Assembly (NCBI RefSeq): GCF_000384315.1
Contig: NZ_ARVW01000001.1
Location: 186,001-250,000 of the forward strand
Direction: 5' to 3'
Origin: Amycolatopsis nigrescens CSC17Ta-90
Lineage (GTDB): Bacteria > Actinomycetota > Actinomycetes > Mycobacteriales > Pseudonocardiaceae
DNA length: 64,000 nt
Under the pieces are notes generated by a model. That model made no database searches. It saw nothing but the letters and a program-made list of their open reading frames with translations, and was not told the DNA's origin. Below, in pieces: positions 2,904 to 62,403 of the stretch. Positions within the stretch are counted from its first letter, which is position 1, and each line of letters starts with the position of its first letter. The translations under genes were made by a program, and so were the position numbers.

Positions 2904-3893
2904 TCATCGCTCCTCGATCTCGGCGGGCAGACCGAACAGGCCGAAGTCCGCGGTCAGGAACGAGACGACCTCGGCGATCTCCGTGCCCCGCAAGGTGAGC
3001 AGGTCGAGCCCGGCCGCGACGTAGACGCACTTGTCCTCGTCCCACCTGTACGTGCCGAACGCGAGCTGCCCGTTCGCCCGCGCCGGCCGGAACCGCCACC
3101 GCAGGGACAGCGGTTTCCCGGTGAGGAACTCCCTGATGCCCGCCCGGCCCTGGTACCACTCCGGCAGGGGCGGCATGGCGTACCGGGCGTCGTCGGTCAG
3201 CATGGCCACGATCGCCTCGACGTCGCGGCTCTCCCACGCCCTCGAGTACCGGTCGGCCAGTTCGCGGACCTTCTCGTCGCCGAGCGAACGCAGGGTCACC
3301 TGCTGACTGCGGCCGGGCAGGCGCTCCCGGAGGGTCCTGCGGGCGCGTTGCAGTGCGCTGTTGACCGACGCGACCGTGCCTTCCAGCAGATCAGCGGACT
3401 CGATCGCGGAGAATCCCAGTACCTCCCGCAGCAACAGGACGGCCCGCTGCTGAGCCGACAGGTACTGGAGCGCGGCGAGGAAGGCCAGCTCCACGCCTTC
3501 CCGGACCTCGTAGCGGGCCGCGGGATCCGGCTCCACCCCGGCCAGTCGCTCGTCGGGGTACGGCTCGAGCCACAGCGGTTCGGAACCGGGGCCTGCCTCG
3601 GCGGGCAGCTCTCGGCGGCCTCGGCGTTCGAGCAGGGTCAGGCACCGGTTGGTGGCGATCTTGTACAGCCAGGGCCGGATCCGGCGGCGGCCGTCGAACC
3701 GGTCCAATGCCCGCCAGGCCCGCACCAGCGTCTCCTGCATCGCGTCCTCGGCGTCGTGGACCGACCCGAGCATCCGGTAGCAATGCGCCTGCAACTCACC
3801 GCGGTAGGGCTCGACCAGCTGCCCGAAGGCCACCTGGTCACCAGTGCGCGCCGCATCCAGAAGCTGCTCTTCGGCCGTGTCGTTCCCGTACAT
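2904..3893 (-). CDS. ECF sigma-70 factor with C-terminal SnoaL-like domain (SigX5/TIGR02960 type)
   Basis: 329 residues from the ATG at 3893. Region 2 is clear near the N-terminus ([18 protein letters not shown], then [11 protein letters not shown]), and region 4 follows ([18 protein letters not shown] with [13 protein letters not shown]). After about residue 205 comes a SnoaL/NTF2-like domain ([25 protein letters not shown] near the end). This layout is that of large ECF factors in which the fused SnoaL domain tunes activity instead of a separate anti-sigma factor. The open frame continues far upstream without a start-like context; [10 protein letters not shown] is the natural family start. 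The SDR gene lies just downstream and may be part of its regulon. Confidence 0.88.
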
Positions 3894-3983
3894 GCAGCAA
3901 CCCGCCCCGGCGATCGATTTTCCGAATGCCGAGCACCGTAGCGCAGCCTTTCGGTAAACGCTGACGAGCGGGTGCCCACCGCT

Positions 3984-3989
3984 TACCCT
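3984..3989 (+). promoter_or_regulatory. -10 box TACCCT of an apparently leaderless gene
   Basis: TACCCT fits TAnnnT and ends 6 nt before the GTG at 3996, so transcription would begin at or next to the start codon. No Shine-Dalgarno sequence is present. It supports GTG 3996 over the in-frame GTG at 3972. Confidence 0.4.
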
Positions 3990-3995
3990 GGTGCG

Positions 3996-4619
3996 GTGAA
4001 CATGATGAGCCTGGCGCACGAAGAACGAGCGGACTTCGTGGCGCTGCTGAAGAGCTTGTCTCTGCAACAATGGGACGAGCCGACGTTGTGCCGAGGATGG
4101 CGGGTGCGCGACCTGGTCGCGCACGTCGTGAGTTACGACGAGCTCGACAAACGGGGCGTCACCGCACGCTTGGTCAAGGGCCGGTTCAGTCCCGGCCGGA
4201 TCAACGACCTCGGGGTGGCCGAGTACAACACGCGCACCCCGGACGAACTGATCGCGTTGATGAACGATCACCTCGAGCCGACGGGCCTGCGCGCCGCTTT
4301 CGGTGGCATGATCGCACTGGTCGACGGGCTCATCCACCAGCAGGACATCCGCCGCCCGCTCGGCCTGCCCCGTGACATTCCGCCGGAGCGGCTGCGGCGC
4401 ACGCTGCCGGCCGCGCTGGTCGCCCCGCCGATTCGCGCGTTCTGGCGCGCCAGGGGGCTCCGGCTGGTCGCCACCGACCTCGACTGGTCCACCGGGTCCG
4501 GCCCCGAGGTGCGCGGCCCGGCCGAAGCGATCCTGATGGCCGTCGCCGGGCGCGGCCACGCGGTGGGCGAGCTGACCGGTGACGGCCAGCCGAAACTCGC
4601 CGCCCGCATGACCGGTTGA
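3996..4619 (+). CDS. Maleylpyruvate-isomerase-fold, mycothiol-dependent-type protein
   Basis: 207 residues. DinB-like four-helix protein of the MDMPI N-terminal family. The first block ([20 protein letters not shown] followed by VAHVV) carries the metal-site His, and the second conserved block is [12 protein letters not shown] with the family HxxDIRRPLG signature. These enzymes bind a divalent metal and many use mycothiol in isomerisation, detoxification or transfer reactions; the substrate cannot be read from sequence. GTG 3996 is chosen because a TACCCT box precedes it; ATG 4002 or 4005 is possible. It is divergent from the ECF sigma gene with about 100 bp between. Confidence 0.8.
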
Positions 4620-8331: not shown

Positions 8332-9201
8332 ATGCGACGGAACCGTGCACCGCGGCGGCGAGCGAGCCGGATCGGCGCGGCGATCATGGCGGGCGGCCTG
8401 TTCCTTACCGCGCCGGTTTCGCAGGCGGCCGGCAATCCGCACCAGCGCGGGCCGGACCCCACACCGCAGAGCATCGTCGCCGAAAAGGGGCCGTTCGAGG
8501 TCGCGACCGCGCCGGCACCGGCCGGAAACGGTTTCGGCGGCGGCACCATCTACTATCCGACCGACACCAGCCAGGGCACCTTCGCCGGTATCGCGATCTC
8601 GCCGGGTTTCTTCGGTCCGCAGTTCAGCATCGACTGGTACGGGCCCCGCCTGGCGTCACAGGGATTCGTCGTCATCGCCATCACGACGAACGCGCTGTGG
8701 GACTTCCCGAGCCAGCGCGCGGACCAACTCCTCGCCGCACTGAAGTACCTCAAGCAGGACAGCCCCGCCAAGGACCGCTTGGACGGCGGCCGGCTCGGCG
8801 TGATGGGTCACTCGATGGGCGGCGGCGGCACGATGGAGGCCGTGCTCAAGGATCATTCGCTGAAGGCAGCCATCCCGCTGACCGGCTGGGGCATCACCGC
8901 CGACTACTCCGGCGTGCAGACACCGACGATGATCATCGGGGCGCAGTTCGACGTCGTCGCCCCGGACGAAAGCTACTCGATACCGTTCTACAAGAGCCTG
9001 CGCCCGGATCTGGACAAGCAGTTCCTCCAGCTCGCCGGCGGCACCCATTTCAGCCCGAACCTGCCCAACACGACCATCGCCAAATACAGCATCTCCTGGC
9101 TGAAGCGCTTCCTGGACGACGACACCCGCTACCAGCAGTTCCTCTGCCCGGTGCAGCCGGATCCCGAACTGTCCGCGCACGAGGCCACCTGCCACAGCTG
9201 A
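8332..9201 (+). CDS. Secreted cutinase / polyester hydrolase (PET-hydrolase type I family)
   Basis: 289-residue alpha/beta hydrolase with a long twin-arginine-like or Sec signal (residues 1-32, RRRASRIG then a hydrophobic stretch). It follows the bacterial cutinase fold closely: ISPGFFGPQFS (oxyanion region), WYGPRLASQGFVVIAITTN, nucleophile motif GHSMGGGG with Ser161, the substrate-clamp Trp186 in LTGWG, acid Asp207 in GAQFDVVAP, and base His239 in GGTHFSPN. Cys272 and Cys287 match the C-terminal disulfide of this family. The first aromatic clamp residue, usually Tyr, is Phe93 (GFF). Such enzymes cleave cutin and synthetic polyesters, including PET to varying degree. It stands alone, divergent from the TetR-MpaB operon. 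Confidence 0.92.
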   Translation: MRRNRAPRRRASRIGAAIMAGGLFLTAPVSQAAGNPHQRGPDPTPQSIVAEKGPFEVATAPAPAGNGFGGGTIYYPTDTSQGTFAGIAISPGFFGPQFSIDWYGPRLASQGFVVIAITTNALWDFPSQRADQLLAALKYLKQDSPAKDRLDGGRLGVMGHSMGGGGTMEAVLKDHSLKAAIPLTGWGITADYSGVQTPTMIIGAQFDVVAPDESYSIPFYKSLRPDLDKQFLQLAGGTHFSPNLPNTTIAKYSISWLKRFLDDDTRYQQFLCPVQPDPELSAHEATCHS

Positions 9202-16802: not shown

Positions 16803-16827
16803 CATGCCGATCGCCGGATCGGTCCGC

Positions 16828-17892
16828 TCAGGTGAGGAGTTCGGCGAGCTGGGCCATCTCGGTGGCCGGGTCGATCACCGGCTGGATGAGGAGTTCGTCG
16901 ATGCCGGCCTGCTCCAGCGTGGCGATGCGGGTGCGAAGGTCGTCGCGGGTGCCGACCAGCGCCAGGGTGTTCATCAGCGAGGGCAGCACCAGGTCGCGGT
17001 CCTGCGGTGCGATGCGTCCGAGGTAGTTGGGGTAGAGCTTGGTGTGCCGGTCCGGCGCGGTGGCGGTGGTGCCGCGCCGGTCGAGCAGTCGCTGCACCGC
17101 TTCGCGTTCCTCGGGGCCGAGTTGCTCGGCGAAAGAGGGTGTGTCGGCGGCGGTGTCGGCGGCGAAGGCCAGCAGCGACAGGACGAGGTGGCCTGTCACG
17201 TCGCGGGCTGTGTCGCTGTGCGGGTCCTCGTCCTCGTCGAGGATGTGGAGCGCGGTGACCAGGTAGGAATCCGTGCGGGAGTCGGGGGCGCGGAGGGTGT
17301 CCTGGGCGGCGTGGCGGCGGGCGGCGTGCAGCGCGTGCCAGGCGGTGGGGTCCAGCAGGCCGAAGGAGATGAGGCCGGTGCCGCGGCGGCCGGCGACGGC
17401 GGCGGCCTTCGGTCCGAGCGCGGCCACGACGAACTCGATCGGGTCGGTGGTGTGCACGTGCGCCCCGGTGTGCAGGAACCGGATGTCGCGGACGCGGTCA
17501 CCTTCGCGGTACTCGGTCGAGCGTCCGGCGCACAGGTCCTGCAGTGCGGTGGTGAATTTCTCCAGTGCGGCCGCCGTGGTCGGCGGCATGCCCAGGGTGC
17601 GCCGGGCGGTGTTTCCGGTGCCGACCCCGCAGATGATCCGGCCCGGTGCGATGGCGTTGAGGCTGGCGAACCCGCTCGCGGCGGCCGGCGCCGAGCGCAG
17701 CGCCGGTGAGGTCACGCCGATGCCGAGCCTGATGCGGCTGGTGGCCTTCGCGCACAGTCCCAGTGCGACGAAGGGGTCGCCTTGCACCATCGGGGTGTCG
17801 TTCACCCAGAAACTGTGCAAGCCCAACTCCTCGGCCAGCACGGCGAGGTCCTCCACACCGGGGTGTGCGGTGACCACGACGCCTGCGCGCAT
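16828..17892 (-). CDS. LLM-class flavin- or F420-dependent oxidoreductase
   Basis: 354 residues from ATG 17892. Luciferase-like TIM barrel: AEELGLHSFWVNDTP near the start, SRIRLGIGVTSPALRSA for strand 3, and GRIICGVGTGNTARRTLG in the cofactor region; the C-terminal end has LVGTRDDLRTRI and AGIDELLIQP. It lies 33 bp downstream of the MFS gene and ends a three-gene operon whose first gene encodes a GTP-cyclohydrolase-like protein. In this context it could oxidise or reduce a pterin-derived product. Whether it uses FMN or F420 cannot be decided by eye. Confidence 0.85.
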   Translation of the reverse strand: MRAGVVVTAHPGVEDLAVLAEELGLHSFWVNDTPMVQGDPFVALGLCAKATSRIRLGIGVTSPALRSAPAAASGFASLNAIAPGRIICGVGTGNTARRTLGMPPTTAAALEKFTTALQDLCAGRSTEYREGDRVRDIRFLHTGAHVHTTDPIEFVVAALGPKAAAVAGRRGTGLISFGLLDPTAWHALHAARRHAAQDTLRAPDSRTDSYLVTALHILDEDEDPHSDTARDVTGHLVLSLLAFAADTAADTPSFAEQLGPEEREAVQRLLDRRGTTATAPDRHTKLYPNYLGRIAPQDRDLVLPSLMNTLALVGTRDDLRTRIATLEQAGIDELLIQPVIDPATEMAQLAELLT

Positions 17893-17925
17893 GATGCCTC
17901 CAACGTGCTGTCGTTGCTTCGGCGG

Positions 17926-19128
17926 TCAACGGGAAGCCACCAGCTCGGCTTCGCTGAACGCGGCCGGGGACATGGTGCGCCACACGATCCAGGCCCCGAT
18001 GAACTGCACGGCGCCGCCCATCACCCAGACGCCCCGCAGGCTCCAGTGCGCCGCGACCAGGCCGCCGGCCAGTGCACCCAGCGGGGTGAGACCCCAGGCC
18101 AGCGCGCGATGGCTGGTCAGGACCCGGCCGAGCAGGGCGGGCGGGGTGAAACGTTGCCTGCTGGACTGCGAGCAGACGTTCCAGACCAGGGTGGTGGCGG
18201 TCATCAGAATGAGCACCGCACCCACCGCCGGGGGCCATGGCGGCAGGACGGCGATCAGCAGTTCCAGCAGGGCGACGAAACTCTGGGCAAGGCGCATCGA
18301 CCAGGAATAGCCCAGCCGCCCCACGATCCGGTGCACGAAGAAGGAGGACGCCACCCACCCCACGGCCATGCAGGCGAGCAGGGCACCGTAGCCGACCGCG
18401 CCGATCCGCAGTTCCTGCGTCGCGTAGAGGACGAGCATGGTGGCGCTCGCGCTCGCGGCGAAGGAGCCGAGCGCCACGGTGATGGTGATCGAGCGCAGTA
18501 GCCGGGTGCGAACCAGGTACTTCAGCCCTTCGGTGAGGTCGTGCAGCGGACGCGCTTTGGCGGCGGCGACCGACGCCGAGCGCAGGCCCCTGCTCAGCAC
18601 GAGTGCCGACACCGCCAGCACGCACGCCGCCCAGGCGGGAGCCCCGGCGCTGAGCGCGAGCAGGGCACCGGCGGCCGGCGGGACGATGAACTGCACGATC
18701 CCCTGGTCGATCACCTGAAGCCGGGCGTTCGCCGCGGGCAGCCGGTCCCGCTCCACGATTTCCGGCACCAGTACGCCGCTGACCCCGTTCCCGAGCACCT
18801 GCGTCGAGGTCACCAGGAACGCGACCACCAGCAGCAGCGGCAGGCTCAGCGACCCGGCCGTGCCGGCGACCGCCAGGATCAGCGCCGCGCACACCTGCAC
18901 CCCGTAGGCCCAGGCGAGCACCGTCGTGCGCCGCACCCGGTCGATCAGCAGCCCGGCGAACAAGGAGAAGAGCAACCACGGCGCCTGCCCCACCACGTTG
19001 ACCAGCGAAACCTCACGCGGGTCCGTGGTGATCGAGACCGCGAGCAACGGCAACGCCGCCAGCAACAGCCCCTCACTCGCCGAACCGGACACCGCCACCG
19101 CTTGAAGCCGTACCCATTTGCCAGCCAC
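17926..19128 (-). CDS. MFS transporter (12-TM exporter)
   Basis: 400 residues from GTG 19128 with about 12 hydrophobic segments. The helix 2-3 loop reads LFAGLLIDRVRRTTVLAW, the MFS motif A variant xGxxxDRxxRR; EIVERDRLPAANARLQVID is typical of the enterobactin-exporter-like (EntS/MFS_3) group. Second gene of the operon, 28 bp after the GTP-cyclohydrolase-like gene and 33 bp before the LLM oxidoreductase gene. A plausible exporter for the product of that operon. Confidence 0.85.
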   Translation of the reverse strand: MAGKWVRLQAVAVSGSASEGLLLAALPLLAVSITTDPREVSLVNVVGQAPWLLFSLFAGLLIDRVRRTTVLAWAYGVQVCAALILAVAGTAGSLSLPLLLVVAFLVTSTQVLGNGVSGVLVPEIVERDRLPAANARLQVIDQGIVQFIVPPAAGALLALSAGAPAWAACVLAVSALVLSRGLRSASVAAAKARPLHDLTEGLKYLVRTRLLRSITITVALGSFAASASATMLVLYATQELRIGAVGYGALLACMAVGWVASSFFVHRIVGRLGYSWSMRLAQSFVALLELLIAVLPPWPPAVGAVLILMTATTLVWNVCSQSSRQRFTPPALLGRVLTSHRALAWGLTPLGALAGGLVAAHWSLRGVWVMGGAVQFIGAWIVWRTMSPAAFSEAELVASR

Positions 19129-19156
19129 GACCTCTGCCCCCAGGAGTCCACCAGTT

Positions 19157-19780
19157 CTAGCTGCGTCCTCCAGACCTTACGTCGTGCTCGTCGAGCAGGG
19201 ACAGGAATTCCGCCCTGGTCCTGGGATCCGACCGCAGGGAGCCCAGCAGGCAACTGGTCACCAGCTCCGCGCCCGCGGACTGCTCCCCTCGCAGGCAGGC
19301 GCACAGATGGGTGGCGGAAACCACCACGCCCACTCCGCCGGCGTGGAGCATTTCCTCCACTCCGCGCGCAATTTGCCCGGTCAGATATTCCTGGGTCTGC
19401 GCGTTTCTCGCGAAATGACGAACGGTACCGACGAGTTCGGGAACATCGATCGACCAGCCACCGGGAATATAACCGACGTGCGCGAAGCCGAAGAACGGCA
19501 GCAGATGACAGGAGCACAGGCTGGTGAACTGAATGGATTGGACCAGGGTCAGGCATTCGTCCTGCTCGCCACTGGGCGACAGGGCGGGCGCAAAAGGTTG
19601 CGGCTTCAGGAAATCGGATAACAGGGCGACCAGTGCCTCGGCGGTCTCCGCGGTTTGCGCACCTGCCGGACGGGCATCCAGCACCTGCAGCAGATCACGG
19701 ACTCCGAGTTCCGCCTTTTTCAGATCGCCCGGCTGTCTTTGGCCCGGAATGTCCAGCCCTTGGCGGCTGTCCGGAATCAC
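19157..19780 (-). CDS. Atypical GTP cyclohydrolase I (FolE-like)
   Basis: 207 residues. The FolE core is clear: SLCSCHLLPFFGFAHVGYIP (residues 87-106), QEYLTGQIARGVEEML (130-145), and GVGVVVSATHLCACLRG (149-165), then TRAEFLSLL. Zinc ligands corresponding to E. coli Cys110, His113 and Cys181 remain (Cys89, His92, Cys160), as do His158, the Gln-Glu pair 130-131 and Arg164. However, the usual CEHH is CSCH: Glu111 is Ser90 and His112 is Cys91, and the LSK segment is lost (DVPELVG). A housekeeping FolE is therefore unlikely; altered chemistry on GTP or a related purine is possible. Start GTG 19780; a good GGAGG lies further upstream in front of a 12-bp tandem repeat, so the N-terminus is uncertain. 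Confidence 0.85.
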   Translation of the reverse strand: MIPDSRQGLDIPGQRQPGDLKKAELGVRDLLQVLDARPAGAQTAETAEALVALLSDFLKPQPFAPALSPSGEQDECLTLVQSIQFTSLCSCHLLPFFGFAHVGYIPGGWSIDVPELVGTVRHFARNAQTQEYLTGQIARGVEEMLHAGGVGVVVSATHLCACLRGEQSAGAELVTSCLLGSLRSDPRTRAEFLSLLDEHDVRSGGRS

Positions 19781-20103
19781 GATCTCAACCCCGATGAAGT
19801 CCCGGATGACAGCCCGGATGACAGCATTGCCCTACCTCCGCTCGCCGGCCCGCAGAACGTCCTGATTCTAACCCGCTGTCACCGGTTTCGCCTGACCGGA
19901 ACCCGGCCACCCCGTGCCCGCGAGCGGCCGTCGCAGCGCGTAGTAGCCTTGAACCGGCGGTCAGGGCCGACCGCGCCGGGGGGTGCGATCCGCGGAAGCC
20001 CTGCTCAGCGGTGTTTGTCCGGGTGCGGGCGGTTCGCTACCTTGTGGAGAGTGACCATAGCTTTGGGTTGTCCATCGCCGAGATGCTGCGAGAGGTAGGA
20101 CAT
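19781..20103. other. Divergent intergenic region between FolE-like and FolP2-like genes
   Basis: Contains the tandem repeat at 19801-19824 and must hold both divergent promoters. A minus-strand frame in line with the FolE-like gene reads AVIRAVIRDFIGVEIV but has no start codon before a TAG. No palindromic operator was seen. The last 20 bp carry the ribosome binding site of the FolP2-like gene. Confidence 0.5.
19801..19824. repeat. 12-bp perfect tandem duplication
   Basis: CCCGGATGACAG occurs twice in direct succession just upstream of the FolE-like start. As the unit is 12 bp, duplication would not change a reading frame through it. Confidence 0.8.
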
Positions 20104-20997
20104 ATGCCGCCGGTGGATCCCACCGAGGTCGATTTGGTGTTCCGTGGTCGCAAAGTGGTCCGGGATCGGGCACTGATCATGGCCATCATCAACCGGACAA
20201 CCGATTCCTTCTTCGACCAGGGCGCCACTTTCGGCGAAGAAGAAGCGCAGAACGCGATTAGCCGGGCCGTGGCGGCCGGCGCGGACGTCATCGACATCGG
20301 CGGTGTGCGGGCCGAAGCCGGCCCGGAGGTCAGTACCGGCGAGGAGATCGACCGCGTGGCGCCCGTCGTGCAATGGGCCAGGGAAACGTATCCGGATCTG
20401 TTTATCAGCGTCGACACCTGGCGCCGTGAAGTCGGCGAGGAAGTGTGCCGGGTCGGCGCGGACATCATCAACGACAGCTGGGCGGCGGCCGAACCGGAAT
20501 TGATGGATGTCGCGGCCAAGTACGGCACCGGCTATATCTGCACGCACACCGGCGGCCAAGCGCCGCGGACGGTGCCCGTCCGGCCGCGGTACGAGGACGT
20601 GGTGGCGACCGTGGTGGAGGAAACCGTCCGGCTGGCCGAACTCGCGGCGGCCAAGGGGGTTCCGCGGGGCGGCATCCTCATCGACCCCACGCTCGGCATC
20701 CTGTACGGCAAGGACACCGACTACAACGTCACGCTGCTGCGCCACGTGCGAGCGTTCGTGGACACCGGCTGGCCGGTCCTGATGGCGATCTCGAACAAGG
20801 ACTTCATCGGCGAGATCCTGGACGCGGACCTCGAGGACCGGATGGTGGGGACCTTGGCGGCCACCGCGTACGCGGCGAACGCCGGAGCGGTGATGTTCCG
20901 GGCCCATCACGTCCGCGAAACCCGCCAGGTGGCCGAGATGATCGCGACCATCAACGGCAGCCGCCCGCCGTCCCGGCCCTACCAGTGGACCGCCTGA
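20104..20997 (+). CDS. FolP2-like dihydropteroate synthase homologue
   Basis: 297 residues from ATG 20104, preceded by GAGAGGTAGGACAT (good ribosome binding site). TIM-barrel DHPS family, closest in motif to mycobacterial FolP2: ALIMAIINRTTDSFFDQGAT (23-42), GADVIDIGGVRAEAG (59-73), ISVDTWRREVG (101-111), INDSWAA (122-128), CTHTGGQAPR (146-155), LIDPTLGILYGKD (192-204), MAISNKDFIGE (227-237), MFRAHHV (264-270). Compared with true DHPS the pABA/pterin loops are altered (HTGG for MHxxG, SNK for SRK). FolP2 proteins have no proven DHPS activity. It is divergent from the FolE-like operon rather than beside gpgS, where the usual copy sits in mycobacteria, so it is probably a specialised paralogue acting on a pterin. 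Confidence 0.85.
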   Translation: MPPVDPTEVDLVFRGRKVVRDRALIMAIINRTTDSFFDQGATFGEEEAQNAISRAVAAGADVIDIGGVRAEAGPEVSTGEEIDRVAPVVQWARETYPDLFISVDTWRREVGEEVCRVGADIINDSWAAAEPELMDVAAKYGTGYICTHTGGQAPRTVPVRPRYEDVVATVVEETVRLAELAAAKGVPRGGILIDPTLGILYGKDTDYNVTLLRHVRAFVDTGWPVLMAISNKDFIGEILDADLEDRMVGTLAATAYAANAGAVMFRAHHVRETRQVAEMIATINGSRPPSRPYQWTA

Positions 20998-21987: not shown

Positions 21988-22662
21988 TCAGAGGGAACGG
22001 GTTCCGTCCAGGACGACCCTGCCGCCGACCTCCACCGTGCCGTCCGGCCCCGGCCTGGTCAGGATCTGCGATCCCTTGCCCTGCGCGATGTCCAGTGCCC
22101 GGCCCAGCTCGGCGGTGAGCACGATCGCGGACGCGCCGGTCGCCTCGTCCTCGACGATGCCGTCGCCCCGGCGGGGAAATCCCCTGGCCCGCACCCGGCC
22201 GGCGGCCTGCTCGCGCCACGCCCAGGCGTACAGCCAGCCCTCCCCCGGCGGCGGGCTCGGCAGGGCGTCCACCTCTTCGGCCGACGCGTGCTGCCGCATG
22301 AGCCTGCCGGGCGCCCACGCCGCGCGGCCGCTGACCCAGGTGAACTCGCCCTCCTGCCTGGTCGGCACCGGTCCCGCCGGCGGGTGCAGCACCGCCGGCC
22401 CGGTGCTCAGCCGACCCAGCAGCCAGGAGACGCCGACCAGCGGATGCCCGGCGAACGGCAGCCGCACGCTGGGCGTGTAGATGTCGACCGTGCCGGTACC
22501 GGCGTCGTCGACGAAGACGGTCTCGCTGAAGCCCAGCCGCGCGGCCACGGCCTGGCGGTCCTGTCCGGCCGCGACGGCGGGCCCGTCGAGAACCACGCCC
22601 AGCTCGTTGCCATAACGCCCGTCGGGGCCGCAGAACACGCGAAGAACATGGAGAGCTGTCAC
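21988..22662 (-). CDS. PhzF-family isomerase/epimerase-like protein
   Basis: 224 residues, somewhat shorter than the usual 260-300. Family marks: VFCGPDGRYGNELGVVLDG at the start, FSETVFV with the conserved catalytic Glu of PhzF, LPFAGHPLVG, and DEATGASA near the C-terminus. PhzF isomerises trans-2,3-dihydro-3-hydroxyanthranilate in phenazine synthesis, but most homologues act in unknown pathways. No other phenazine gene is near, so a phenazine role is unlikely. Its start overlaps the stop of the NCS1 permease gene by 4 bp, so the two form an operon and the substrate may be related to the imported nucleobase. Confidence 0.82.
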   Translation of the reverse strand: MTALHVLRVFCGPDGRYGNELGVVLDGPAVAAGQDRQAVAARLGFSETVFVDDAGTGTVDIYTPSVRLPFAGHPLVGVSWLLGRLSTGPAVLHPPAGPVPTRQEGEFTWVSGRAAWAPGRLMRQHASAEEVDALPSPPPGEGWLYAWAWREQAAGRVRARGFPRRGDGIVEDEATGASAIVLTAELGRALDIAQGKGSQILTRPGPDGTVEVGGRVVLDGTRSL

Positions 22663-24092
22663 GCCACCAGGCTAACCGGGCTCGCCGGGCCGAAGACCTC
22701 GCGAGGCTCCGGGAACAGCTTGTTCAGCAGCGGGTAGGCGATGGCCGCGGTGCACAGCGTCACCACCAGGCTGAGGTCGACCCCACCCGCGATGCCGCTC
22801 AGCGGGCCCGTGATCATCGGCGTGTTCGCGCACAGCAGGCCCAGCGCGGTGGCCGGGATCCAGGCCCCCATCGCGCGCCAGTTCACCCCGTGCCGGAACC
22901 AGTAGCGCCCGCCGCGGCGGCCCTCGTTGAACACCTGCAGATCCTCGACGTCGTAGAAGCCGCGGCGTTGCACGTAGCCGATCATCATGATCACCATCCA
23001 CGGCGACGTGCACAGCACGATCAGGGTGGCGAACGCGTTGATGCTGGACACCATGTCCAGCACGAAGTTGCCGACGAAGATGAACACCACGCTCAGCGAG
23101 CCGATCAGCAGCGTCGCCCGCACCCGCGACAGCCGCGGGAAGATCGAGCTGAAGTCGAGGCCGGTGCCGTACAGCGCGGTGGTGCCCGTGGACAGCCCGC
23201 CGATCAGCGCCACCACGATCAGCGGAATCGCGTACCAGAGCGGGGAAATCGCGGTCAGGCCGGTGATGTAGTCGGCCGGGTCGGCGACCAGGGTCGCGGT
23301 CGCGATGCCGAACCCGAACGGCAGCAGCGTGGCCACCTGGGCCAGGAACGGCGCCGCCAGCAGCGAACGGCGGCGGTAGGTGGCCGGGATGTAGCGCGAC
23401 CAGTCGCCGAGGAAGGCGCCGAACGAGATCGGGTTCGCCAGCGTCGTGAGCACCGCCAGGATGAACGTCGGCCCGAACGTACCGAGCGCGTAGACACCGG
23501 TACCCGCGAACCCCGGGTCGAAGCTGCCACCGTAGGCGAAGCCCCCGAGCAGCATGATCACCGTGCCGAGCACCACCGCGACCCGGTTGACCAGCAGCAT
23601 GAACCGGTACCCGTACAGGCAGACGACAAGCGTCGCGATCGCGATCAGGCCGTAGGCCACCGCCCGCAGTGCCGCGCCGCCGTCGAAGCCGAACAGCCGC
23701 TGCGCCGCGCCGGCCACCGCGTCCCCGCTGACCCAGACCGAGATCGCGAAGAAGGTGATCGCGGTCAGCAGCGACAGGAACGACCCGACGCACCGGCCGA
23801 CCACGCCGAAGTGCGCCCCCGAGGACACCGCGTTGTTCGTCCTGGTCCGCGGCCCGAACAACGCCATCGGCGAAAGCACCAGCCCGCCGGCGACCACCCC
23901 GATCGCAACCGCGGCCACCGCCGCCCAGAAGCTCAGGCCGTACGCGATCGGCAGGGTGCCGAGGATGATCGTGGCGAAGGTGTTCGCCCCGCCGAACGCG
24001 AGCCGGAACAGGTCGCGCGGACGCGACGTCTGCTCCGCGACCGGAATCGGCGCGATCCCGTGCTGCTCGACCTCGGTGACCTTCTCACTCAT
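22659..24092 (-). CDS. NCS1-family nucleobase:cation symporter (purine/cytosine permease-like)
   Basis: 477 residues, about 12 hydrophobic segments. Typical features: a short N-terminal cytoplasmic arm ending RDLFRLAFGGANTFATIILG, TRTNNAVSSGAHFGVVGRC in helix 3, DWSRYIPATYRRRS after helix 6 (the conserved DxSRY loop of the CodB group), and YGTGLDFSSIFPRLSR. Imports cytosine, purines, allantoin or hydantoins in related systems. The PhzF-like gene follows with a 4-bp overlap. Confidence 0.88.
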   Translation of the reverse strand: MSEKVTEVEQHGIAPIPVAEQTSRPRDLFRLAFGGANTFATIILGTLPIAYGLSFWAAVAAVAIGVVAGGLVLSPMALFGPRTRTNNAVSSGAHFGVVGRCVGSFLSLLTAITFFAISVWVSGDAVAGAAQRLFGFDGGAALRAVAYGLIAIATLVVCLYGYRFMLLVNRVAVVLGTVIMLLGGFAYGGSFDPGFAGTGVYALGTFGPTFILAVLTTLANPISFGAFLGDWSRYIPATYRRRSLLAAPFLAQVATLLPFGFGIATATLVADPADYITGLTAISPLWYAIPLIVVALIGGLSTGTTALYGTGLDFSSIFPRLSRVRATLLIGSLSVVFIFVGNFVLDMVSSINAFATLIVLCTSPWMVIMMIGYVQRRGFYDVEDLQVFNEGRRGGRYWFRHGVNWRAMGAWIPATALGLLCANTPMITGPLSGIAGGVDLSLVVTLCTAAIAYPLLNKLFPEPREVFGPASPVSLVA

Positions 24093-60695: not shown

Positions 60696-60858
60696 CACTG
60701 TCGCCAACGGCACAATGTTGACTTGTTGAGTTCTCCAGGAAACACCGAAAGTGCTCGATCGAATGGGTGTTGATTGGTTGATGAACCAAGGAAACACTCC
60801 TCAGTCGCGCACGTTGCCAGTCACGCCATCAACACGAATCAGTCAAGGAGCCGTACCC

Positions 60859-62403
60859 ATGTCCTCACCACGCTCAACCGCACGCCGAGCGACGGCACTC
60901 GCCTCCCTCGTCCTCGCCACGACGAGCATGGCCGCCGCTCCGGCGTCGGCGATCAGCGGCGGCGCCCCGGCGGCCGACCGCAGCCACCGGTTTGTCGCGA
61001 AGGTCACCGTCGGCGACCAGAGTTGCACCGGGGCACTGGTCGCCCCGCAGTGGCTGCTCACCGCCGCGAGTTGTTTCGCCGACACCCCGGACCAGGGATT
61101 CCACATCCCCGCCGGGCCACCCCGCCAACGCTCGACGGCGGTGATCGGCCGCACGATCCTGTCCCAGGACGACGGTCAGGTCGTCGCCATCACCGACCTC
61201 GTCCCCCGGGACGGCCGCGATCTCACGCTCGCCAAGCTGGCCACCCCGGTCACCGGCATCACCCCGGTGCCGGTCACCCGCACCGCGCCGAAAGCCGGCG
61301 AGGAACTCCTGGTCGCCGGCTACGGTCGCACCTCCACCGAGTGGGTTCCCGACCGGCTGCACACCGCCACCTTCACCGCACGCGAACTCACCGACACCAC
61401 CTTCACCATCACCGGCAAAGACCCGGCTACCGCCTCCACTTGCCGCGGCGACGCCGGCGGACCCGCCTTGCGGGACACCAACGGGAACGTCGAACTGGTC
61501 GCGATCAACAGTGTTTCCTGGCAGGGCGGCTGCATCGGAGAGACCGAGACCCGCACCGGCTCCACCGAGGCTCGTGTGGACGACCTGGGTGACTGGATCC
61601 GGCGGCATGTGCCCGACCTCGCCATCGAGTGCGCTGCCGCGGCGCCGGTGTTCACCACCCGCGGGGACGGCAGCATGTGGCTGTATCAGCACACCGACCC
61701 CCGCAACGGCAGCTTCTCCTGGATCAACGACAACGGGCAGGCCATCGGCTCCGGCTGGCTCGGCACCCGCGCCGTCGCAGCCCCCGGCGGCGTGGTCTAC
61801 CAGGCCAACAGCAACGGCGAGCTCCGCCGGTTCCGCTGGAACGGCACCACCTGGGACCTCAACACCGGCCCCACCCCCTACTACCAGGTCATCGACGGCG
61901 GCTGGGGCCGCTACGCCACCGCCGAGTACCGCAACCGCATCACCGTCGACACCACCGGGCACATCTACACCATCGAACCCGATGGCAACCTGCACCGGCG
62001 CACCTACGACCCTGCCACCGGCAACTGGAACCACCGCGTCCTCAAAGACGGCTGGGCCAAATACGATCTCATCGTCGCCGCCGGCGACGGCGTCCTCTAC
62101 GCCCGCACCCCCAACGGCGAGCTGTTCCGGTTCGTCTACAACGCCACCTCCGGTGAATGGACCCAGTGGGCCAAGCCCTCGGGCACTGGCTGGAACACCT
62201 TCAAAACCATCATGTCCGTCGGCGGAGACGTCCTCTACGGCTCCCACCCCGACGAAAACGGCGGCCTGCTCTGGTACCGCCACCTCCCCGCCAGCGACAC
62301 CTGGGCACCCACCGGCCGCAACCAGGGCAAACTCATCGGCACCGGCTGGTACGACCTCTACGACATGACCGCGGCACCCGACACCTGCAGGCTCACCCCC
62401 TGA
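60859..62403 (+). CDS. Secreted trypsin-fold pseudoprotease with tachylectin-like beta-propeller
   Basis: 514 residues from ATG 60859 (AAGGAG upstream). Signal 1-31 (ending APASA), then ISGGAPAADRSHRFVAKVTV, the usual IxGG activation-like end of S1 proteases. The catalytic His block is LLTAASCF: Ser71 stands where His57 belongs. Asp121 (RDLTLAKL) is kept, and the Ser195 loop reads CRGDAGGPAL, Ala199 for Ser. The fold is therefore an S1 protease without His and Ser, so almost certainly inactive as a protease. From about residue 260 there are tachylectin-type blades (GSMWLYQHTDPRNGSFSW, then VYQANSNGELRRFRWNG), a glycan-binding propeller. Likely a secreted binding protein. Confidence 0.85.
   Translation: MSSPRSTARRATALASLVLATTSMAAAPASAISGGAPAADRSHRFVAKVTVGDQSCTGALVAPQWLLTAASCFADTPDQGFHIPAGPPRQRSTAVIGRTILSQDDGQVVAITDLVPRDGRDLTLAKLATPVTGITPVPVTRTAPKAGEELLVAGYGRTSTEWVPDRLHTATFTARELTDTTFTITGKDPATASTCRGDAGGPALRDTNGNVELVAINSVSWQGGCIGETETRTGSTEARVDDLGDWIRRHVPDLAIECAAAAPVFTTRGDGSMWLYQHTDPRNGSFSWINDNGQAIGSGWLGTRAVAAPGGVVYQANSNGELRRFRWNGTTWDLNTGPTPYYQVIDGGWGRYATAEYRNRITVDTTGHIYTIEPDGNLHRRTYDPATGNWNHRVLKDGWAKYDLIVAAGDGVLYARTPNGELFRFVYNATSGEWTQWAKPSGTGWNTFKTIMSVGGDVLYGSHPDENGGLLWYRHLPASDTWAPTGRNQGKLIGTGWYDLYDMTAAPDTCRLTP

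Follow-up and report, generated by a model that had tools for sequence, protein, structure and literature searches.

A FolE-like protein of Amycolatopsis nigrescens that keeps the zinc and ring-binding residues of GTP cyclohydrolase I and lacks most of its ribose and triphosphate residues

Introduction

The active site of GTP cyclohydrolase I (FolE) has been assigned residue by residue in the Thermus thermophilus enzyme, where zinc is bound by Cys108, His111, and Cys179 (PMC4005822 section 13), Glu150 contacts the guanine ring, and His177 opens the imidazole ring (PMC4005822). The ribose oxygen receives a proton from His110, which may have a further part in the C8/N9 ring cleavage; Ser133 holds the ribose, and Lys134, Arg137, Arg183, and Arg64 hold the triphosphate (PMC4005822). 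QueF and QueF-like (QueF-L) proteins are T-fold enzymes in which the ring substrate is held by an anchoring Glu and attacked by a Cys, according to excerpts of PMC5485725 and PMC5372742. Here we analyze a FolE-like gene and its neighbors in a 64,000-nucleotide stretch, hereafter the window, of the Amycolatopsis nigrescens CSC17Ta-90 genome (9.11 Mb, one contig, NZ_ARVW01000001.1; the window is positions 186001-250000 of the contig). A minus-strand trio of genes encoding the FolE-like protein, a major facilitator superfamily (MFS) exporter-like protein, and an LLM-class oxidoreductase faces a divergent gene for a FolP2-like protein, and a preliminary description of the locus proposed a dedicated pathway in which the four proteins form, alter, and export a pterin- or purine-based metabolite, or else give antifolate self-protection. 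Judging from its sequence, the FolE-like protein should be no ordinary GTP cyclohydrolase I: it keeps the residues that bind zinc and the guanine ring and lacks most of those that act on the ribose and the triphosphate.

Results

The FolE-like protein is a member of the GTP cyclohydrolase I family by Pfam (Table 1) and falls under the NCBIfam folE equivalog cut-off (TIGR00063, 117 versus 181.6), as it does for the three other folE models listed. For its AlphaFold2 (AF2) model (predicted local distance difference test score, pLDDT, 89.8; predicted template modeling score, pTM, 0.85), the best PDB fold found with Foldseek was T. thermophilus FolE (1wm9; template modeling scores 0.77/0.86). Because the alignment of the FolE-like protein with 1wm9 is ungapped from C89 onward, with an offset of 19, the residue roles given in PMC4005822 were transferred to it. 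The zinc ligands (C89, H92, and C160), the guanine-anchoring Glu (E131), the ring-opening His (H158), and one triphosphate-binding Arg (R164, equivalent to Arg183) are kept. In contrast, His110 is replaced by C91, the ribose-binding Ser133 by P114, and the triphosphate-binding Lys134 and Arg137 by E115 and G118, respectively. The fourth triphosphate-binding residue, Arg64, is represented by A49, an equivalence that was drawn from the conserved Arg column of the TPxR motif, outside the 1wm9 alignment. In E. coli FolE, residues of this site carry the names His112, Lys136, and Glu152. The preliminary description had read CSCH in place of CEHH with the zinc ligands kept, and had called the protein atypical; the translation bears out both statements, and the losses go beyond His112. 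The LSK segment, which had been reported as lost, is indeed gone, but it is replaced by VPE and not deleted. In Plasmodium falciparum GCH1, the H279S change, which matches H91C, abolishes both activity and complementation (PMC4005822).

To place these replacements against the natural variation of the family, the protein was compared with viral FolE sequences. A more diverse viral set was used because the genome's own normal FolE types lose many of the columns that are near-invariant among actinobacterial FolE proteins: the window protein loses 36 of 88 such columns, and the two normal FolE types lose 27 of 98 and 52 of 102. Those columns were accordingly rejected as sole proof of an unusual protein. 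From 495 viral relatives the best 80 were taken, 70 passed a length and stop codon filter, and, after removal by hand of 10 apparent near-duplicates, 60 were aligned with the window protein (alignment A2). In the 60 viral proteins, 29 columns reach a conservation of at least 95%; of these the window protein keeps 20 and loses nine (P47A, R49A, F67L, E90S, H91C, G112D, S114P, K115E, and R118G), six of these columns being conserved in 60/60 viral sequences. When each viral FolE was left out in turn, the worst sequence lost three of 27 columns and the median loss was 0; with a 90% conservation limit, the losses were 14 of 40 for the window protein and nine of 38 for the worst viral sequence. Each zinc ligand is present in 61/61 rows of the alignment, window protein included, and the residue before the zinc His is His in the other 60 of the 61 rows, with Cys91 in the window protein. 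All eleven active-site positions are invariant in 43/43 other FolE proteins, including the two other FolE types of the same genome. The losses are unevenly divided between the two parts of the active site: none of the five zinc and ring residues is lost, compared with five of the six on the ribose and triphosphate side, His110 included (one-sided Fisher p 0.013; hypergeometric p 0.005 for at least five of six losses given nine of 29), with the caveat for both tests that the residue groups were named after the losses had been seen. The sequence CAC at C160-C162 was considered as a special second motif and rejected, Cys162 being present in five of the 61 rows.

The change from His to Cys was then sought elsewhere. 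A DNA pattern for CSCHLLPF-x-G gave one match over the Genome Taxonomy Database (GTDB) genome contigs, outside any FolE frame. With a looser C-x-C-H pattern there were 18 matches in viral contigs, none of them FolE by tblastn, and, in 396 genomes of the phylum, the gene itself and one match that was not FolE by tblastn. These patterns fix some codons (CTN for both leucines in the genome contigs search), and other codings could escape them. In 73 of the 80 viral FolE loci the motif could be read by script, always with His: 71 have CEHH, one CSHH, and one CQHH. Among open-licence papers, we recognised no study of a C-x-C-H FolE.

No close relative of the FolE-like protein was found in the sets searched. 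Among 120 relatives, 119 had some match, and none of the matches listed exceeded 44% identity. Of 394 genomes of the class, 18 (its own included) passed 1e-36, the others all at 46% identity or less, and among 390 genomes of the family a match passing 1e-40 came from its own genome and a single other, at 41% identity. FolE relatives were found in 232 plasmid records, all below 60% identity; over short stretches, identity reached 47% in plasmids and, for a stretch of 119 residues in viral contigs, 51%. A search for relatives with the locus over genome contigs matched 106 stretches and yielded no confirmed relative. The FolE tree places the window protein beside a viral FolE (L151, support 0.91), a kinship that we reject as probably long-branch attraction: L151 keeps CQHH, LSK, and R49. 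The L151 FolE gene is preceded by an open reading frame (ORF) read as QueE.

The window folE is an extra copy. The genome has three PF01227 genes, one beside the housekeeping folP (4.14 Mb), one in a QueC-PTPS-FolE group (2.10 Mb), and the window gene, and both of the other FolE proteins carry CEHH. The idea that the window gene is the sole folE of the genome is thereby excluded, and the FolE-like copy would be free to change, since the genome keeps two CEHH FolE proteins elsewhere. The preliminary description left uniqueness in the genome as a point to settle, and the answer differs for the two families: folE is not unique, whereas the window FolP2 is the only FolP2-type gene. In the 2.10-Mb group (L049:8421-15061), after QueC, PTPS, and FolE come an ORF that matches no Pfam family, an aminotransferase, and a 2-oxoglutarate (2OG)-Fe(II) oxygenase, and by its gene content the group looks like a 7-deazapurine natural-product cluster. 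FolE matches to the window protein at E<=1e-32 occur in 68 of 71 congeners, mostly at 39-44% identity and with CEHH where the motif was read (e.g., L012 and L053). This second FolE type, found genus-wide in congeners, is absent from the source genome.

The assignment of the facing gene to FolP2 holds: by sequence it is of the FolP2 type and not a housekeeping dihydropteroate synthase (DHPS). Its best PDB match is 2vp8, "dihydropteroate synthase 2" (308 bits over residues 14-293; the next chain scores 143 bits). It also matches the DHPS profile TIGR01496 (246 versus a cut-off of 162.6), a model that may not separate FolP2 from DHPS. Besides the window FolP2 and the housekeeping folP, the genome has one further PF00809 gene, within a 1557-aa frame read as metH; used as a protein query, the window FolP2 matches its own genome twice, once itself and once in what is presumed to be the housekeeping folP (37% identical). 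Among 25 FolP2 proteins placed in a tree after removal of duplicates, with the housekeeping FolP (L004) as out-group, the window FolP2 joins L038, an extra copy in a genome of another family (G075), to which it is 72% identical (74% over a shorter stretch). G075 has an additional FolP2-type gene that is 53% identical to the window FolP2. A two-residue insertion, DPT(L/W)GILYGKDT, is shared by the window FolP2 and the G075 copy and absent from the 23 other FolP2 proteins compared, and both have GGVRAEAG where the genome's housekeeping FolP has GGESTRPG. Two FolP2 proteins near 56% identity were found in plasmids at E<=1e-60.

In mycobacteria folP2 is linked to gpgS; that the window gene is such a gpgS-linked copy was rejected, with GpgS at 2.39 Mb and the sole FolP2-type gene in the window. 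We know of no reaction assigned to the FolP2 family. According to an excerpt of PMC1971073, folP2 lies in clusters with genes for the cell wall in the high-GC Gram-positives, and a complementation test of M. leprae folP2 in an E. coli folP mutant was negative. Across the genus the FolP2 gene was found in several different settings. The G075 copy lies behind a short-chain dehydrogenase/reductase (SDR) gene, with a divergent MarR gene and an MFS gene alongside, a setting that resembles the window in theme only, and weakly, since MFS genes are common. In three of the 20 FolP2 loci fetched (L061:9911-10651, L063:7575-8306, and L077:7940-8743, the last assigned by clustering only), FolP2 overlaps a same-strand RibD_C gene, encoding a dihydrofolate reductase (DHFR)-like reductase, which is a possible functional partner of FolP2. 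We take the window FolP2 for an accessory variant of its family, linked to the operon by position only.

The features of the locus are listed in Table 1. All four ORFs lie where the preliminary description had placed them, the trio on the minus strand with intergenic gaps of 28 bp (19129-19156, between the FolE-like and MFS genes) and 33 bp (17893-17925, between the MFS and LLM genes), and the FolP2-like gene divergent from it. With gaps this short, the FolE-like, MFS, and LLM genes probably share one transcript. For FolP2, the ATG at 20104, after GAGGTAGG, is more likely to be the true start than position 20011, because none of the listed FolP2 matches starts before residue 27 of the long ORF.

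Table 1. Features of the FolE-like/FolP2 locus (window coordinates)
Feature	Position	Strand	Evidence
LLM-class (luciferase-like) oxidoreductase, 354 aa	16828-17892	-	Pfam PF00296 Bac_luciferase, 111.8 bits, above cut-off
MFS exporter-like protein (MFS_3), 400 aa	17926-19128	-	Pfam PF05977, 77 bits, above cut-off
FolE-like T-fold protein, 207 aa, GTG start, CSCH motif C89-S-C91-H92	19157-19780	-	Pfam PF01227 GTP_cyclohydroI, 125 bits, above cut-off
FolP2-like ORF (long form)	20011-20997	+	Pfam PF00809 Pterin_bind, 197.8 bits, above cut-off
Variant FolP2 (pterin-binding, DHPS-like fold), 297 aa from likely ATG	20104-20997	+	PDB 2vp8 best match
Divergent intergenic region, 323 bp, FolE-like start codon to FolP2 start codon, GC 0.663	19781-20103	.	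Sequence
Block 93% identical to lone LLM locus of congener G021	16823-17923	-	blastn and upstream alignment

The gene set is not conserved in the loci examined. Forty-one loci of relatives, each of about 15-19 kb, were fetched around single members, and no two of the four genes were found together, which goes against the proposed dedicated four-protein pathway: a second member was present in 0/20 FolP2 loci, 0/8 FolE loci, 0/10 MFS loci, and 0/3 LLM loci. The MFS protein has matches at E<=1e-50 in 17 of 60 genomes (16 besides its own), with identities of 62-78% in 15 of the 16, and 10 of these 16 places were fetched. The LLM protein has matches at E<=1e-60 in four of 60 genomes, again including its own, and all three other places were fetched; among the NCBIfam matches listed for it no family was above its cut-off, the best being TIGR03842 (111 versus 295). 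The LLM block shared with congener G021 takes in 31 bp upstream of the ATG and stops 2 bp before the stop codon of the window MFS gene, and neither FolE-like, MFS, nor FolP2 genes lie within the 19 kb fetched around the G021 LLM gene. LLM settings differ between genomes: in G033 the gene immediately follows dnaB, and in G021 it comes after a region judged by eye to be mobile or phage-like (L120:9404-10426, L119:8991-10043). The outer neighbors of the locus, RF3 and an NCS1 nucleobase permease, match relatives as single genes only (eight loci fetched). The lack of conserved co-occurrence, the lone LLM block, and the single-gene matches of the outer neighbors suggest that this gene order is recent and particular to the lineage, and that the surrounding chromosome is a mosaic.

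Elsewhere in the window, an SDR gene (2085-2843) lies 14 kb from the four-gene locus, and a short PhzF-like ORF, with a family match in its first part only, overlaps the NCS1 permease gene by 4 bp (21988-24092). Other genes encode a strong PET hydrolase-like protein (8332-9201; PF12740 PETase, 339 bits), a fusion of a trypsin domain with a tachylectin domain (60751-62403), and a sigma-70 factor with a SnoaL-like domain (2904-4559).

Discussion

The reading that we prefer, and to which we give an even chance, is that the window encodes a descendant of FolE that is no longer a GTP cyclohydrolase I and probably takes a ring ligand without a triphosphate, within a recently assembled, lineage-specific operon. 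Its sequence shows that the zinc triad, the guanine-gripping Glu, and the ring-opening His are kept, and that the ribose-protonating His (now Cys91), the ribose-binding Ser, and three of the four triphosphate-binding residues are lost. The protein would bind, and might transform, a compound that carries no triphosphate and resembles guanine, deazaguanine, or a pterin, and Cys91 may serve as a new reactive group or an extra zinc ligand. The MFS transporter and LLM oxidoreductase would have been placed beside the FolE-like gene only recently, and are probably cotranscribed with it.

Several observations weigh against this reading. The viral control set still has nine pairs more than 90% identical. 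Many of the actinobacterial near-invariant columns are lost by the two normal FolE proteins of the genome too, though these lose none of the eleven active-site residues. The sparing of all five zinc and ring residues is by itself not significant (p 0.13), and the high pLDDT, which an alignment of this kind would lead one to expect, does not prove function. No orthologue by which purifying selection on the FolE-like protein could be gauged was found in the family and class genomes searched. Its terminal branch, 1.66, is the third longest of those listed, compared with a median of 0.37, and GC content at third codon positions (GC3) is 0.726 in the FolE-like gene, compared with 0.90 and 0.91 in its MFS and LLM operon partners and 0.87 in FolP2 from its ATG; the long branch and the low GC3 also fit relaxed selection or foreign origin.

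It is possible, although we think it unlikely, that the gene is instead a folE remnant, decaying or of foreign origin, which no longer has a role and precedes the MFS gene by chance in a plastic chromosomal region. We keep decay as a strong rival mainly because of the low GC3, which points to foreign origin or relaxed selection, and the long branch, the mosaic surroundings (RF3 and the NCS1 permease matched singly), and the lack of a near orthologue in the 390 family genomes (one at 41%) or 394 class genomes (none above 46%) all agree with it. However, the 207-codon frame is intact, the operon spacing is tight, 20 of the 29 near-invariant columns are kept, and the losses are concentrated on one half of the active site. 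The preferred reading of a repurposed FolE descendant can be taken further: the zinc and ring-opening half would be kept and the ribose-triphosphate half shed, with Cys91 acting on a free base, deazaguanine, or pterin, the LLM protein and exporter cooperating on a small secreted molecule, and the variant FolP2 serving as a pterin-handling partner. In this extended form we consider it doubtful.

We regard as improbable a pathway in which all four proteins take part in making, modifying, and exporting a single pterin- or purine-based metabolite. The operon spacing and divergent orientation would suit such a pathway, as would the nearest FolP2 relative, in G075, which likewise has genes for an SDR reductase, a MarR regulator, and an MFS protein close by. 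So would the similar pattern of change in the two pterin-related proteins, in each of which the ring-binding part looks kept and the phosphate or second-substrate part changed, if, as we presume, the residue roles of DHPS apply to the GGESTRPG/GGVRAEAG loop. Yet a second member of the set is absent from every FolP2, FolE, MFS, and LLM locus fetched, the LLM gene exists as a lone block, and the likeness to G075 is weak, MFS genes being common. Self-protection from an antifolate or pterin-like compound, with FolP2 as an insensitive binder and the MFS protein as exporter, is very improbable: an exporter gene adjoins a pterin-binding protein both here and in G075, and beyond this adjacency no evidence for it was found, whereas the GGESTRPG-type loop seen in the housekeeping FolP is missing from FolP2, M. 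leprae folP2 fails to complement the E. coli folP mutant (excerpt of PMC1971073), no antifolate gene cluster is evident among the 30 window ORFs scanned with Pfam, and the FolE-like and LLM proteins would be left without a part. We give just as little credence to a working FolE-like/MFS/LLM operon formed by chance with FolP2 merely facing it, which would suit the different relatives and settings of each gene elsewhere, including the several settings of FolP2 across the genus, and which sits poorly with the general expectation that divergent genes with a short shared gap are often regulatory.

The FolE-like protein is an odd orphan protein and not a proven new pathway, and it can be set beside several known systems. 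The hybrid NRPS-pteridine cluster of Photorhabdus, as described in an excerpt of PMC5384830, likewise has a FolE-family gene outside folate synthesis; the window differs in that no PTPS, pyrophosphokinase, or nonribosomal peptide synthetase (NRPS) genes are among its 30 scanned ORFs and its gene set is not conserved. Toyocamycin/huimycin-type 7-deazapurine clusters (excerpt of PMC7439116) share with it an extra FolE in an actinomycete, but that role suits the 2.10-Mb QueC-PTPS-FolE group of this genome rather than the window FolE-like protein. Mycobacterial FolP2 (2vp8) is the best PDB match of the window FolP2, with the substrate-loop region altered alike, and differs from it in lacking the two-residue insertion in DPTLGILYGKDT; the window FolP2 also has an NRTTDSFF loop. 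The locus as a whole offers a small lead on FolP2, a family that is widespread among the relatives searched.

QueF and QueF-like proteins, which act on preQ0, are a precedent for T-fold enzymes that combine an anchoring Glu with a reactive Cys. They have in common with the FolE-like protein the T-fold, an anchoring Glu, a Cys in the active-site region, and a ligand without triphosphate, the last of these being our inference for the window protein. In contrast to them, its Cys stands beside the zinc His, the zinc triad is kept, and Pfam and the fold search identify it as FolE. The QueF motif E(S/L)K(S/A)hK(L/Y)(Y/F/W), as given in an excerpt of PMC5372742, was absent by eye from the translation, and an identification as QueF was rejected on this ground and because the zinc ligands are kept. 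The nearest system remains GTP cyclohydrolase I itself (FolE, PF01227), with which the protein shares the fold of 1wm9, the zinc ligands C89/H92/C160, the guanine-anchoring E131, and H158, and from which it departs in having Cys for His110, in lacking Ser133, Lys134, Arg137, and Arg64, and in scoring under the equivalog cut-off. Since the FolE active site is highly conserved, a natural copy that has shed most of the sugar-phosphate half and retained the zinc and ring residues is a clean natural experiment on possible changes of substrate in T-fold enzymes, and the FolE-like protein, if active, would carry a new T-fold function.

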